A DNA stretch of 11,076 nt from Minisyncoccota bacterium (lineage in GTDB: Bacteria; Patescibacteriota; Minisyncoccia; UBA6257; GWB1-50-10): positions 1 to 11,076 of the forward strand of contig JAGUWR010000009.1 in assembly GCA_020062265.1 (NCBI GenBank). Reading direction: 5' to 3'. The position numbers and the translations under genes are program-made. Below, piece by piece: positions 1,461-9,990 of the stretch. Within the stretch, counting starts at the first letter, position 1, and the number at the start of each line of letters is the position of its first letter. The notes under the pieces were generated by a model that ran no database searches, was not told the origin of the DNA, and saw nothing but the letters and a program-made list of their open reading frames with translations.

Positions 1461-1533
1461 CTAATGGCTAATAACCAAAATAACTAATGACTAATGACAA
1501 GTTATAAGTTATGAGTCATAAGTTATAAGTTGC
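1461..1533. repeat. Heptamer tandem arrays in the pilB-pilT spacer
   Basis: Two 7-bp-period arrays fill most of the 85-bp spacer. The first has CTAATGG and CTAATAA, a 9-bp interruption, then CTAATGA twice (1461-1497). The second has AAGTTAT, AAGTTAT, GAGTCAT, AAGTTAT, AAGTTGC (1499-1533). Together they carry TAA or TGA in all three forward frames. A 13-bp perfect palindrome (1509-1521) falls out of the GAGTCAT variant. No Shine-Dalgarno sequence or clear promoter is visible in the spacer. Confidence 0.85.
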
Positions 1534-1539
1534 GAAGCT

Positions 1540-2613
1540 ATGATTGACTACAAACAAAAACTAAACGAACTGTTGCTGGCGGCGGCTAAACAGAATGCGT
1601 CGGATCTTCATATTGGCGTTGGCCGCCGGCCGACCTTAAGGATTGACGGCGTTCTCATCCCGCTCGCCAAAGAATCGATCCTTGCTAAAGACGATGCCGA
1701 AGGGCTGGTTTTTGCGCTCCTTACCGAAGAACAGCGCCAAGAGTTCCTGAAAGAGAAACAACTTGATTTTTCTTACAACTATGAAGATAAGGCGCGGTTC
1801 CGGGTGAACGTTTACTTCCAGCGCGGTTTTTCGGCGGCGGCCCTGCGGTTAATCCCGGCTCATATCCGGACTATTGAAGAACTTAACTTGTTGCCGATCC
1901 TTCACGATTTTACAAAACTCAACCAAGGTTTCATTCTCGTCGTGGGACCGGCCGGCCATGGCAAGTCCACCACCCTGGCCGCTCTTCTTGATGAAATTAA
2001 TCACAAAAGAACCGAGCATATTATTACCATTGAGGACCCTATTGAGTATGTTTTTGCCCAGGATCGTTGCATTATTTCCCAGCGTGAGGTAGGTCTCGAT
2101 GCGATTTCATTCCATTACGCGCTTCGTTCCCTTCTCCGTCAGGACCCCGACGTGATTATGGTTGGCGAGATGCGTGATCCGGAAACTATTGCTACGGTAA
2201 TGACCGCGGCCGAGACCGGCCATCTTGTTTTTTCCACCCTTCACACGAATTCAGCTTCTCAGACGATTGACCGTATCATTGACAGCTTTCCTTCAGAACA
2301 GCAAGGCCAGATTGTTTCTCAATTAGCGTCAACGCTTGTGGCGATTGTGTCGGAGCGGCTCATTCCTCGTCTCGGCGGCGGCCGCGTGCCCGCCACCGAG
2401 ATTATGTTTGTTAATTCGGCTGTTCGGAATTTAATCCGCGAGCGGAAAATATACCAAATCGACCTCGTGATTGAGACGAGCATCCAGGAAGGAATGATTT
2501 CGCTTAATCGTTCTTTGGTAAATCTGGTTAGGCGAAAAGAGATTTCGCTGGAGCAGGCCGAGAGTTATTCATTGAACCCGGCCGAACTCCGCATTCTTCT
2601 CGAACGGACTTGA
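1540..2613 (+). CDS. pilT: PilT-type pilus retraction ATPase
   Basis: Cytoplasmic hexameric ATPase that drives pilus depolymerisation. At 357 residues it has normal PilT length and lacks both the long N-terminal domain and the four-cysteine site of PilB. It begins with the PilT-type segment around ASDLHIGVGRRPTLRIDG (20-37). Walker A is GPAGHGKS at 136-143; the usual family form is GPTGSGKS, but the GxxxxGKS pattern is intact. The Asp box has E165 (IEDPIEY), Walker B ends at E210 (DPDVIMVGE), and the His box has H228 and H235. AVRNLIRE at 294-301 matches the PilT signature AIRNLIRE needed for retraction, which supports PilT over a second PilB. The ATG has no Shine-Dalgarno sequence; the start is chosen by the fit of the N terminus. 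The gene sits between pilB and pilC with heptamer repeats on both sides. Confidence 0.95.
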   Translation: MIDYKQKLNELLLAAAKQNASDLHIGVGRRPTLRIDGVLIPLAKESILAKDDAEGLVFALLTEEQRQEFLKEKQLDFSYNYEDKARFRVNVYFQRGFSAAALRLIPAHIRTIEELNLLPILHDFTKLNQGFILVVGPAGHGKSTTLAALLDEINHKRTEHIITIEDPIEYVFAQDRCIISQREVGLDAISFHYALRSLLRQDPDVIMVGEMRDPETIATVMTAAETGHLVFSTLHTNSASQTIDRIIDSFPSEQQGQIVSQLASTLVAIVSERLIPRLGGGRVPATEIMFVNSAVRNLIRERKIYQIDLVIETSIQEGMISLNRSLVNLVRRKEISLEQAESYSLNPAELRILLERT

Positions 2614-7404: not shown

Positions 7405-7865
7405 TGAAAAATTACAAATTACAAATTACAAATTACAGATTTGTTAGGGGGCAAGCAATGATTCTCACGACGTTGATGATCGGGGGTTTATTTTTAATGG
7501 CAACAGCTATTGCCGGTCTTTTAATGTTTTACCAGCTTCAGCAGGCCACTGATTTTGGCAATTCAACAATTGCGATTTTTGCCGCCGATGCCAATCTTGA
7601 GCGGGCGATTTACTATTATTTTTACGAGTACCAATATAATCCATATAATCCAGGTCTGTGTTTCCCTCAATCTTGTGATAGTGGGGCGCCGGTAAATCTT
7701 AGTAATGGAGCCAGCGGTTCGTCTAATTTAATCATTCCCCCGCCGGATATAGCGATTTTCTACCCTACGACTACTATTACCGCCATCGGTTTTGATGTGG
7801 GCGGGAGAACTATTCGTCTTTTACAGACAACTCTTCGCCCAACTGCTGAGCCGCTTACTCCATAA
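7404..7865 (+). CDS. GspK/PilX-like minor pilin without Glu5
   Basis: A 153-residue membrane-anchored pilin-like protein. The ATG shares one base with the previous TGA (TGATG); an in-frame ATG at 7392 would overlap further and is less likely. The leader (MKNYKLQITNYRFVRG) is mostly repeat-encoded. A hydrophobic segment follows (about 18-43), then QATDFGNSTIAIFAADANLERAI, matching the PilX-type pattern in which an Ala-rich stretch precedes a conserved acidic residue. If cleavage is at G16/Q17, position +5 is Leu. Lack of Glu5 is a known trait of GspK, the tip pseudopilin. C86 and C91 may form a disulfide. As the last of four, it sits where gspK or pilX is expected. The function is inferred from order and N-terminal pattern. 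Confidence 0.75.
   Translation: MKNYKLQITNYRFVRGQAMILTTLMIGGLFLMATAIAGLLMFYQLQQATDFGNSTIAIFAADANLERAIYYYFYEYQYNPYNPGLCFPQSCDSGAPVNLSNGASGSSNLIIPPPDIAIFYPTTTITAIGFDVGGRTIRLLQTTLRPTAEPLTP
7409..7436. repeat. AAATTAC x4 heptamer array after a start codon
   Basis: Four perfect copies of AAATTAC begin two bases after the ATG and encode leader residues up to Tyr11. This unit contains no stop codon in any forward frame. The layout (ATG, A-tract, heptamers, then the signal-peptide end) is the same as in the gene just upstream, although the unit differs. Unit loss or gain would shift the frame. Confidence 0.95.
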
Positions 7866-7881
7866 GTGAGTTTGTAAAAAT

Positions 7882-9990
7882 ATGGAAAGAAAAGAAGCTG
7901 CGGCGCGAATTGAGAAATTAAAAAAAGAAATTGACCGTTACCGTTACGCTTATCATGTTTTAGATAAAGAACTGATTTCGGCGGAAGCTTTAGATTCTCT
8001 CAAAAAAGAACTTTTTGATTTGGAGCAAAAGTTCCCTGAATTTGTAACTCCCGATTCGCCGACTCAGAGGATAGCAGGACGGCCTCTTGAAAAATTTCGA
8101 AAGGTTAAGCATGAACAGCCGATGCTTTCTTTTAACGATGCTTTTTCTGAAGAAGATATGAAAGATTGGTTCACGCGTCTGGAGAACTATCTTGGATACA
8201 AGATCAGCGTTAATCAGCTTAGTAATCAGCGTCAATTAGCGGCATTCTACTGCGAGTTTAAAATTGACGGTTTAGCCATTGAGCTTGTTTATGAAAAAGG
8301 CATTTTGGTTCAGGGTTCAACGCGGGGCGACGGCATCACCGGCGAAGACATTACTCAAAACTTGAGAACTATTGAAGCAATTCCCTTAAAGTTAAATGTT
8401 GAATGGGGCAAGAGACAAGAAAAAATTAAATCCATATCTCATGCCGCATTATCCGGTAAACTCGTTGTTCGGGGCGAGGTCTTTATCGCCAAAAAAGAAT
8501 TTGAACGAATAAATAAAGAGCAAGAAAAAAAAGGCGAGAAAACTTTTGCCAATCCCCGCAATATGGCGGCCGGTTCAATTCGCCAGCTTGACCCGAAAAT
8601 TACCGCTGGCCGCCGTTTAGATTCTTTCCAATATGCTATTGTGACCGACATCGGCCAAAAAACACACGACGAAGAGCATCAAATTCTAAAATCTCTTAGC
8701 TTCAAAACCAACCCTAATAATAAATTAGTCCATTCTTTAGAAGAAGTTTTTGAGTTCAGGAATTATTGGGAAAAACATCGCGATAAGTTGGATTATGAAA
8801 TTGACGGTATCGTGGTCATTATTAATGACAACAAAGTTTTCGCTGACGGCGGAGTGATTGGTAAAGCGCCGCGAGCGGCCACTGCTTACAAATTTTCACC
8901 AAAAGAAGCGACAACCATTGTTGAAAATATTGTTGTTCAGGTTGGCCGGACCGGCGCTCTCACACCGGTGGCAAAATTAAAACCAGTAGAAGTCGGCGGC
9001 GTCACAATCAGCAATGCCACTCTTCATAATTATGATGAGATTCAGCGCCTGGGTTTGAAAATAGGCGATACTATTATTATCAGCCGGGCCGGTGACGTTA
9101 TCCCTCAAGTAACAAAAGTTTTAAAAGATTTGCGGACGGGAAAGGAAAAAGAATTTCAGACGCCAACCCAGTGCCCGGTTGATGGTTCTAAAATTATCAA
9201 GGACGGCGTCATTTATCGTTGTTCTAATCCCAAATGCGGCGCCCGCCATCGCGAAAGTTTGCGTCATTTTGTTTCTCGGGGCGCTTTTAATATTCAGGGC
9301 TTGGGGGCGAAAATCATTAACCGGTTTCTGGATGAAGGTTTGATCGCCGATGCCGCCGATATTTTTACCCTTAAAGAAGGCGACATTGAAGTTTTGGAGC
9401 GTTTCGGCGGAAAATCAGCCCAAAACATAATTTACGAGACTAAGTCTCGTAAGATTATTAGTTTACCGAGATTTATTAATGCTTTGGGGATTCTCCATGT
9501 TGGGGGAGAAACAGCGTTGCTTTTAGCGCGAAGTATAATGGAAAATGTAAAAAGCGGCAAAGGAAGGATAAAAATTAAAGATATTATAAATTACATGTTG
9601 TATGTCTCATTAGACAATTTACAAGAAATTAAAGACATTGGGCCGAAAGTCGCCCGGAGCATCTATGATTGGTTTCGCGAGCAGCGGAATGAAAAATTTT
9701 TGGAGAAACTGGAACGGGCAGGCGTGGAAATAATCAGCGAAAAGTTTAAAGTTAAAAGTTTAAAGTTTAAAGGATTAACCTTCGTTCTGACCGGAAGTCT
9801 TGAAACAATGAGCCGCGAAGAAGCCAAAGAAAAAATTCGTGAACTGGGCGGCGATATTTCCGAGTCAGTCAGCAAAAAAACCGATTATGTGGTGGTTGGT
9901 AGCGAACCCGGCTCAAAATATGAAAAGGCAAAAAGGCTTGGCGTTAAAACAATTGACGAAAGGGATTTTTTGGCTATATTGAAGCCATGA
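7882..9990 (+). CDS. ligA: NAD-dependent DNA ligase
   Basis: Seals nicks in replication and repair, using NAD+ as the adenylate donor. All LigA domains are present in 702 residues: Ia (YAYHVLD near 22-28, NAD-binding), adenylation domain with nucleophile K127 in KIDG, TRGDG at 147-151, RGEV at 197-200, EIDGIVV at 306-312; OB fold with [10 protein letters not shown] (355-364) and [10 protein letters not shown] (401-410); zinc finger; helix-hairpin-helix region; BRCT domain from about 630. The zinc finger has C431, C447 and C452, but the second expected Cys is Asp434 (CPVDG, not CPVCG). Residues 107-120 and 172-192 look like small insertions. Residues 620-631 before the BRCT domain are encoded by a heptamer repeat. 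It starts 16 bp after the last pilin gene, without a clear Shine-Dalgarno sequence, and overlaps the next gene by 4 bp. Confidence 0.97.
8212..8235. repeat. Degenerate 12-bp duplication in ligA
   Basis: Two in-frame 12-bp units, AATCAGCTTAGT and AATCAGCGTCAA, encode NQLS and NQRQ. ATCAGCGT also occurs just before (8203-8210). They lie in a stretch that appears longer than usual between the start of the adenylation domain and the catalytic KIDG motif. This suggests a repeat-born insertion, but two diverged units are weak evidence. Confidence 0.45.
9741..9775. repeat. AAAGTTT heptamer array in the LigA interdomain linker
   Basis: Units are AAAGTTT, AAAGTTA, AAAGTTT, AAAGTTT and a diverged AAAGGAT. 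They encode residues 620-631 (about [12 protein letters not shown]) between the helix-hairpin-helix region and the BRCT domain. The second unit differs by one base (A at 9754). With the consensus T, codon 9754-9756 would be an in-frame TAA; it is AAA (Lys). Confidence 0.92.

Follow-up and report, generated by a model that had tools for sequence, protein, structure and literature searches.

The window analysed here is a stretch of 11,076 nucleotides (contig JAGUWR010000009.1, or C20) of a 331-kb draft genome of a Minisyncoccota bacterium (GCA_020062265.1; 68% complete; G000 hereafter). According to Pfam, it carries a type IV pilus cluster followed by ligA, the gene of an NAD-dependent DNA ligase. 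Short arrays with a 7-bp period recur between these genes, at coding starts and within a linker of LigA, and raise the question of how such arrays come to stand at so many places. In this genome and its relatives, the arrays have in common their period and, to a large extent, a degenerate word. They stand at gene edges more often than random placement predicts, keep one orientation near stop codons in three genomes, show weak sharing between orthologous gene ends, and recur with other words in the LigA linker. The reading that we prefer, with an even chance of being right, is that the arrays come from a mutational process that repeatedly writes short words into sites which tolerate them.

Tandem Repeats Finder (TRF) reports eight period-7 arrays in the window. 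The initial annotation had described seven arrays, although its own list also sums to eight. It had also called the period strict, which does not apply in every case: indels amount to 11% in the array at 1458–1498, 7% at 3929–3949 and 5% at 2613–2636, and the array at 3929–3949 also fits a period of 4. The eight consensus words contain one or two G or C each and no G-rich quadruplex core. A content of exactly one per unit, as first proposed, applies to six of them, fails for TGACTAA and TAACTAAC, and does not extend to the genome, where consensus words with more than one, such as AAATCCT and AAATTCC, occur. With 12 of 14 positions required to match, six lag-7 arrays stand in the window, whereas 500 shuffles under a dinucleotide model have 0.04 on average and 2 at most. 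The array at the pilC end (3929–3949) misses a threshold of 11 of 14, and the remaining ones constitute six merged arrays. The same 12-of-14 scan finds none at lags 5, 8, 10, 11 and 13, one at lag 12, two each at lags 4 and 6, three at lag 9, and five at lag 14, which is twice 7. In the draft genome, AACTTATAACTTATAACTT with up to three mismatches is matched 21 times in forward and 22 times in reverse orientation, and its reversed control not at all. Three units of AACTNAT with up to two mismatches give 42 overlapping matches at period 7 (22 places by hand count) and none at period 8, with 0 and 2 matches, respectively, for the reversed controls. Chance periodicity is conceivable for arrays as A/T-rich as these, but it is refuted by the shuffles (0.04 against 6) and by the absence of the same word at period 8 (0 against 42).

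The excess over composition, which the initial annotation had set as a check, also appears in larger samples at 12 of 14 positions. The first G000 sample (145.8 kb; 12 contigs with known matches and 8 without, and therefore hit-biased) contains 35 arrays at lag 7 against 0.7 in shuffles, together with 16 at lag 9, 9 at lag 6 and 3 at lag 8. Enrichment is weaker in a later sample of 45.8 kb (8 contigs at regular steps, including C21, already known to carry matches), with 4 arrays at lag 7 against 0.26, 7 at lag 9 against 0.09 and none at lag 8. Genes were called by us as longest open reading frames (ORFs), independently of any annotation. On these calls, noncoding and coding arrays in 191.7 kb number 19 and 20 at lag 7, 8 and 15 at lag 9, 1 and 11 at lag 6, 2 and 1 at lag 8, and 3 and 0 at lag 10. 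A sample of 20 other genomes of the phylum, chosen from a list by eye and read from the start of the first contig (334 kb), gives 15 arrays at lag 7 against 2.0, 14 at lag 9 against 1.0, 12 at lag 6 against 2.3 and 7 at lag 8 against 1.7. The lag-7 arrays are confined to four of the 20 genomes, and nine of the 15 lie in one. In stretches of five other members of the family, noncoding lag-7 arrays number nine in G011, five in G003, four in G021 and none in G020 and G018; G020 has five noncoding arrays at lag 9. Period 7 is not alone in its excess: lag 9 exceeds it in the 45.8-kb sample, and in the 20 genomes lag 7 stands no higher than lag 9. Period 7 is so the main period in G000 that does not keep the reading frame, and its excess is lineage-specific. 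G000 also has a second family, of period 9, whose commonest form, GGACYNATW, shares ACYNAT with the heptamer word by eye. This family mostly codes for PIG/PIS repeats (window 5184–5245; L011 1177–1229; L019 4301–4451; L347 3550–3591).

The statement that the arrays do not share one fixed sequence understates their likeness. In the first G000 sample, 21 of 44 lag-7 arrays have an ACTNA core in half or more of the units. Growth of arrays from random genomic 7-mers would lead to 2.1 such arrays (maximum 7 in 200 draws), and growth from intergenic ones to 4.1 (maximum 10). A simpler rule (at least two ACTNAY units), applied with an ORF rule that differs from the one of later analyses, selects, by hand count, 12 of the 19 G000 arrays that lie outside open frames and 7 of the 25 that lie within them. 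Position 5 of the word is A in 61, T in 45, G in 11 and C in 4 of 121 G000 units; with A or T far commoner than G at this position, the word of G000 differs from the exact TAACTGA. Variation within the arrays of G000 fits random substitution (z −0.8, simulation null), and six other genomes of the phylum, when pooled, show no concentration of variation by position (z −1.7). Constrained degeneracy in all genomes was rejected: a first permutation test gave large z values, yet shuffled sequence also reached 12.3, because one substitution creates two mismatches and the permutation z is thereby inflated. Several words coexist within one genome, in G000 and in others. In contig C28 of G000 (L022 3593–4616), several distinct heptamer words are crowded into about 1 kb of open frames. 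Among viral contigs (L269–L292), 24 stretches contain an exact match to AACTWATAACTWATAACTWATAACT. A phylum-wide count, in which 84 of 379 genomes match the word with up to two mismatches, is unusable as evidence of spread because other heptamer words fit the reversed control, which about 70 genomes match (hand count).

Enrichment at gene edges, anticipated by the initial annotation, was found in all three genomes with many arrays. Lag-7 arrays touch a gene edge in 18 of 44 cases in G000 against 3.7 at random, in 38 of 87 in G038 (same order) against 7.3, and in 30 of 83 in G022 (same family, other genus) against 7.5. The stretches of G038 and G022 were taken from contigs with matches; the later, less biased G000 sample gives 2 of 7 against 0.5. 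Arrays outside genes number 14 of 44 in G000 (3.7 expected), most arrays still lying within open frames, and mostly noncoding arrays make up 66 of 87 in G038 and 47 of 83 in G022. Near stop codons, with contact counted from 30 bp inside to 20 bp after, word arrays read in sense rather than antisense by 9:1 in G000, 12:1 in G022 and 21:1 in G038, or 42 to 3 together. Near starts, the three genomes have 12 antisense and 10 sense contacts (7 sense and 4 antisense in G000; 3 sense and 8 antisense in G038 and G022 together).

The same word has the opposite polarity in other phyla. These loci come from an exact-pattern scan of a genome collection (80 of 118 stretches, several from one genome), with phylum labels taken from record titles. 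Among the loci listed, antisense and sense arrays near stops number 12:0 in Cyanobacteria, 10:1 in Bacteroidetes and 7:2 in Poribacteria, all 20 contacts near starts in those three phyla are sense, neighbouring arrays are divergent in 14 cases and tandem in 1, and four loci of named candidate-phyla genomes include two antisense arrays near stops. Word arrays are few in six further genomes of the phylum; near stops, G361 is mixed (2 sense, 1 antisense), polarity is reversed in G130 (2 antisense), and G240 has 1 antisense array. The polarity rule rests on G000, G022 and G038 because arrays elsewhere in the phylum are few and mixed. The reversal across phyla for the same word implies, therefore, that orientation belongs to the lineage and not to the word.

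Selection for stop codons in three frames after genes could account for part of this arrangement. Period 7 moves the frame by one, TAA or TAG is part of the words, and in G022 the native stop itself forms the beginning of the array, as TAACTNA, in 6 of 13 near-stop contacts. Such selection is nevertheless disfavoured, and we regard it as highly improbable: among 188 units, those without either expected stop number 43 against 40.3 predicted by independence, the polarity is reversed in other phyla, and antisense arrays stand before starts.

Neighbouring word arrays less than 150 bp apart are convergent in 11 cases and tandem in 1, with both G000 cases convergent. The pair of the window (1458–1531) is too irregular for the strict word scan and is not among the 11. 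The second word of G038, which reads TAGAA in sense at stops, has one pairing polarity in 4 of 6 neighbours. Intergenic regions periodic at both ends exceed the number expected from independence at a lenient threshold in G022 (13 against 3.6), G000 (5 against 1.1), G011 (5 against 1.0) and G038 (7 against 3.5); G003 has none among 30 regions. The two ends of one region resemble each other more than non-cognate ends do in G022 (0 of 2000 permutations) and in G011 (46 of 2000); for cognate ends in G000 (371 of 2000) and G038 (281 of 2000), this is not clear. At a stricter threshold, inverted similarity is found more often than direct similarity in G038 (7:1), G022 (7:0) and the listed loci of the genome collection (31:8, one tie), the ratios are 2:2 in G361 and 1:1 in G240, and none of 49 regions in G000 is periodic at both ends.

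This geometry suggests RNA hairpins, in which convergent arrays would pair in the intergenic transcript and affect termination, mRNA stability or translational coupling. The convergence of 11 of 12 neighbours, the excess of regions periodic at both ends and the likeness of cognate ends in G022 and G011 are consistent with this explanation. Region 1452–1542 of the window, which includes the pair, folds with −20.9 kcal/mol (z −2.6 on the top strand, −1.8 on the bottom strand), and some pairs surround a terminator-like hairpin by eye (L047, L049). The arms, however, match no better at variable positions than the arms of other pairs (0.644 against 0.668; 11 pairs, three genomes), and the same applies to 14 pairs from the listed loci of the genome collection (0.657 against 0.622, a value equalled or exceeded in 238 of 1000 permutations). 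Neither selection for perfect hairpins nor recent inverted copying is favoured by this result; the pilB–pilT spacer of G020, with nearly identical 9-base arms, is an exception. Compensatory pairing of arms was looked for and none was found. Further points against hairpins are the cognate ends of G000 and G038, the 0 of 30 regions in G003 and the 0 of 49 in G000, the many single arrays, the lack of an Rfam match in the window, and the little sharing of arrays at orthologous gene ends described below. A hairpin function is possible, and in our judgement doubtful.

The two pilT borders were compared in 29 relatives. G022 has the word of G000 there, arranged in the same way; the others are without arrays or, by eye in G020, G021, G023 and G003, carry different repeats. 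The pilB–pilT junction is tight in several relatives and wider in G000 and G022. At orthologous 3′ ends of G000 and G022, arrays are present in both genomes in 3 cases, in a single one in 5 and 8, and in neither in 38 (Fisher p 0.34). Three of the other four genome pairs give p values of 0.45, 0.29 and 1.0, and G000–G038 gives 0.04 uncorrected; at 5′ ends, no genome pair reaches 0.05, the lowest value being 0.059 (reciprocal-best gene pairs). This is a weak test, with one value below 0.05 in ten and small numbers. Sharing at 3′ ends does not exceed chance in four of the five genome pairs, and therefore the coincidence of G000 and G022 at pilT is, taken alone, no evidence of conservation. On these small numbers, arrays are seldom shared at orthologous gene ends. 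At the pilT borders of G003 (L112), an inverted pair, TCCCTYACCCTTCAAA, is found at both borders, not in tandem, and resembles by eye the ends of a small inverted-repeat element.

The widened pilB–pilT junction of G000 and G022 would also be consistent with a miniature mobile element (MITE or REPIN) with heptamer-array ends. Copies that overlap lag-7 arrays in G022 (L052 810–886 and 7034–7110) are 100% identical over 77 bp, and two stretches of G038 (L044 14122–14208 and L050 2862–2949) are 93% identical over 88 bp. By contrast, identity between paired array elements of the G000 sample ranges from 71 to 84% among the 7 listed of 15 matches that overlap arrays, and no near-identical copies are present among the G000 matches listed (28 of 41). 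The Y1 transposase (PF01797) is contained in 16 of the 39 genomes searched, but the search found it in none of G000, G022 and G038. Such an element is disfavoured for G000 and seems very unlikely to us, in agreement with the earlier opinion that the arrays are not one mobile repeat copied around. The G022 element of L052 contains CGAAGCA/CGAAATC heptamers, is 83% identical to L058 8069–8240, and is a possible mobile form of an array. A dispersed element of about 85 bp occurs in G000 in both orientations (L017 12590–12674, L021 8375–8460, L012 2598–2683); its copies are 78–79% identical and clear of heptamer arrays.

DNA ligase LigA is essential, and its linker between the helix-hairpin-helix region and the BRCT domain allows a comparison at one site. 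The ligA gene was matched in 35 of 39 genomes, 30 of the 35 loci were examined, and the linker was obtained from 26 of the 30, G000 included. Period-7 arrays are present in the linker of 8 of these 26 genomes (counting G000), lag 6 in one, and no linker is periodic at any other lag between 4 and 13. Segments drawn at random from these loci give 0.56 for period 7 on average (maximum 2 in 50 draws). The words are AAAGTTT in G000, CAAAGCT in G004, AAATCTC in G020 and of AAATAC type in G034, and arrays are present also in G021, G023, G024 and G025. This recurrence of one period with different words in the same linker favours the repeated local creation first proposed for the arrays. Linkers with arrays have 20 or 21 residues in seven of eight cases (30 in G023), and those of the 18 genomes without arrays have 18 to 24. 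Because a 7-base step breaks the frame, the arrays require several units at once, compensated shifts, or overwriting. The G000 and G004 arrays share register by eye, and some linker arrays may share one ancestral array, with the word changed in concert.

Different words at the same spots in relatives point to recurring writing of new DNA and not to an inherited part. According to our preferred reading, short stretches would be re-copied at many places with a 7-base step (9 in some words or relatives), and the products would persist where extra or altered sequence is tolerated, namely 3′ of stops, 5′ of starts, at signal-peptide starts and in linkers, where they would have no function. In G000, AACTNAT is the commonest word, chiefly outside genes, and two arrays of it sometimes face each other across a spacer. 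One array may be seeded at a gene edge, in the lineage of G000 presumably at TAA stops because the word contains TAA, and the opposite arm may arise by strand-switch copying or by copying of another array of the same word. Seeding at TAA and copying from existing arrays would explain the polarity and the shared word. Coding DNA would retain only arrays without in-frame stops; the ORF list gives no such stop in the three coding arrays of the window. Judging by profile searches, the Y1 transposase, reverse transcriptase and Ku are not common requirements of array-rich genomes; absences are weak for G000 because this genome is incomplete. Among the three array-rich genomes, reverse transcriptase (PF00078) was found in G038 only.

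Several observations weigh against this account. Simple slippage predicts neither the fixed polarity near stops, nor the convergent neighbours, nor the shared word, and plain expansion does not predict linkers of near-equal length with and without arrays. Fresh strand-switch copies should match at variable positions, as seen only in the G020 spacer. Ku was found in 0 of 39 genomes, so that any end joining would be of another kind. In addition, variation is concentrated at fixed unit positions in G038 (z 5.1) and marginally so in G022 (2.1). The second word of G038, N-TTCTA-N, has an almost invariant pentamer with near-random flanks in 17 arrays, which were preselected on that core, so that the position profiles are also shaped by the core filter. 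This invariant core resembles recognition or templating; it is the best hint in that direction, and an account by mutation alone is weakest at this point.

Recognition of the core on DNA or RNA is the basis of an explanation by arrays of protein-binding or DNA-uptake sites, as proposed for TAACTGA repeats. DNA-uptake sequences, with their intergenic inverted pairs and dialects, look similar to the arrays. The shared word, the fixed polarity near stops, the invariant core and free positions in G038, and the ACYNAT common to the 7-bp and 9-bp words of G000 (by eye) agree with such sites. They are difficult to reconcile with the lack of core constraint in G000 (z −0.8), the several words per genome, the little sharing at orthologous sites, and the reversed polarity of one word between lineages, and we consider them rather unlikely. 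Less probable still is a polar, word-specific DNA-writing process, in which a lineage-specific word with a constant core and free positions would be written outward from both sides of a border. A widened border would then receive two arrays that converge, share their word and vary independently at its free positions, written by an enzyme or by copying of existing arrays, without reverse transcriptase or Ku. Lineages would differ in word, step (7 or 9) and polarity, and coding linkers would be overwritten at constant length.

The coordinates of the features are collected in Table 1. By Pfam, the pilus cluster has a pair of T2SSE ATPases, T2SSF, two pilins with an N_methyl domain and a prepilin peptidase, besides pseudopilin-like ORFs. 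The first array begins 3 bp past the pilB stop codon (TGA 1452–1454), and its convergent partner stops 8 bp short of the pilT ATG. The array placed in a pilin leader by the initial annotation ends before the pilin ATG and lies outside the leader peptide, while the arrays reported after two minor-pilin starts and in the LigA linker do encode the N-terminal ends of pseudopilin-like ORFs and the segment before the BRCT domain. The N_methyl match of the pseudopilin with the array at 6851–6884 is below cut-off (E 6.5e-4), and the ORF with the array at 7409–7441 is called pseudopilin-like by position and by eye because it has no Pfam match. A perfect hexamer repeat, AAGCAC × 5.3, encodes a Ser-Thr repeat within the first pilin (4231–4262). 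Downstream, at 9987–11076, a gene that resembles an ABC transporter by eye is seemingly broken according to its ORFs, no family search having been made: the membrane part extends to 10706, the ATPase part starts at about 10703 in another frame, and the usual middle is apparently missing in part.

Table 1. Heptamer arrays and associated features of the window.
Position	Strand	Feature	Basis
1458..1498	+	Heptamer array, TGACTAA / AACTAAT word in sense; left arm of convergent pair	TRF, sequence
1499..1531	-	Heptamer array, AAGTTAT (AACTTAT on minus strand); right arm of pair	TRF, word scan
1540..2613	+	Second T2SSE ATPase of cluster, PilT-like; arrays on both sides	Pfam T2SSE 8.4e-46
2613..2636	+	Heptamer array, ACTAATA, immediately 3′ of pilT stop codon (2611–2613)	TRF; strict word offset +4
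3929..3949	+	Weak array, TAACTAAC, 3′ of pilC stop codon; period 4 fits equally well as 7	TRF
3992..4015	+	Heptamer array, AACTAAT, ending just upstream of pilin ATG (4019)	TRF, word scan
5187..5245	+	Period-9 word family, CCAATAAGC, in frame in prepilin peptidase gene (PISPISPI)	TRF; Pfam A24 domains
6851..6884	+	Heptamer array, AAAACTT, in coding start of pseudopilin, ahead of FTVVELL	TRF, ORF
7409..7441	+	Heptamer array, AAATTAC, in coding start of second pseudopilin-like ORF	TRF, ORF
9741..9772	-	Heptamer array, AAAGTTT, encoding LigA linker ahead of BRCT domain	TRF; Pfam BRCT residues 625–698

Scattered heptamer arrays of bacteria have been noted before, without an agreed mechanism. Three findings now make this question testable: the direction near stops is constant in the array-rich genomes studied here and opposite in other phyla, a frame-breaking period of 7 recurs with different words in one LigA linker of nearly constant length across genera, and arrays are rarely shared at orthologous borders. 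A mutational process would mean that spacers, signal peptides and linkers of small genomes are shaped by it; templating or recognition would mean that a new activity awaits discovery. None of the open-access papers listed reports such arrays in Patescibacteriota, subscription papers not being covered, and nothing was found among open-access papers that joins Parcubacteria, tandem repeat and intergenic.

Among known systems, the STRR repeats of heterocystous cyanobacteria are short degenerate heptanucleotide arrays dispersed in the genome. They were initially named as the nearest analogue; by description, their words differ from those of the arrays described here. Calothrix heptanucleotide repeats are mentioned in PMC4692102. 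Nearer are the TAACTGA direct repeats that MacGregor (2015, PMC4679880) describes from Beggiatoaceae, Cyanobacteria and Bacteroidetes; their word, a rotation of AACTGAT, is near-identical. In the sections of that paper drawn on here, these repeats likewise have period 7, are mostly intergenic at gene edges and patchy across distant phyla. Most of those in its main genome face a downstream start, in agreement with the polarity found here in other phyla, and the sections describe one exact word and one inverted repeat. The arrays of G000 type differ from this description in being sense at stops, with variable word positions and convergent pairs. Convergent pairs are a property shared with the GGGNATC / GGGGA(C/T)T heptamers of Xanthomonas and Nostoc, which are degenerate, intergenic and near genes, with 70 and 75 convergent inverted pairs in two Xanthomonas genomes (Rehm et al. 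2015, PMC4692102). Those repeats are G-rich and quadruplex-forming, whereas the arrays here are A/T-rich with little G on the C-bearing strand, and the portion of PMC4692102 used here describes no recurrence in a protein linker of the kind found in LigA. Its discussion, citing earlier work, names polymerase slippage as one way in which heptamers might arise, and relates it to the stretch of DNA that the polymerase holds. Borg tandem repeats, as far as the parts of PMC9879509 considered here describe them, are also independent, fast-evolving arrays, both intergenic and in ORFs, but those in ORFs are perfect and have units divisible by three, while the coding arrays here are imperfect and of period 7. 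Taking these systems together, we rate the arrays as a variant of the already known degenerate heptamer repeats of bacteria.

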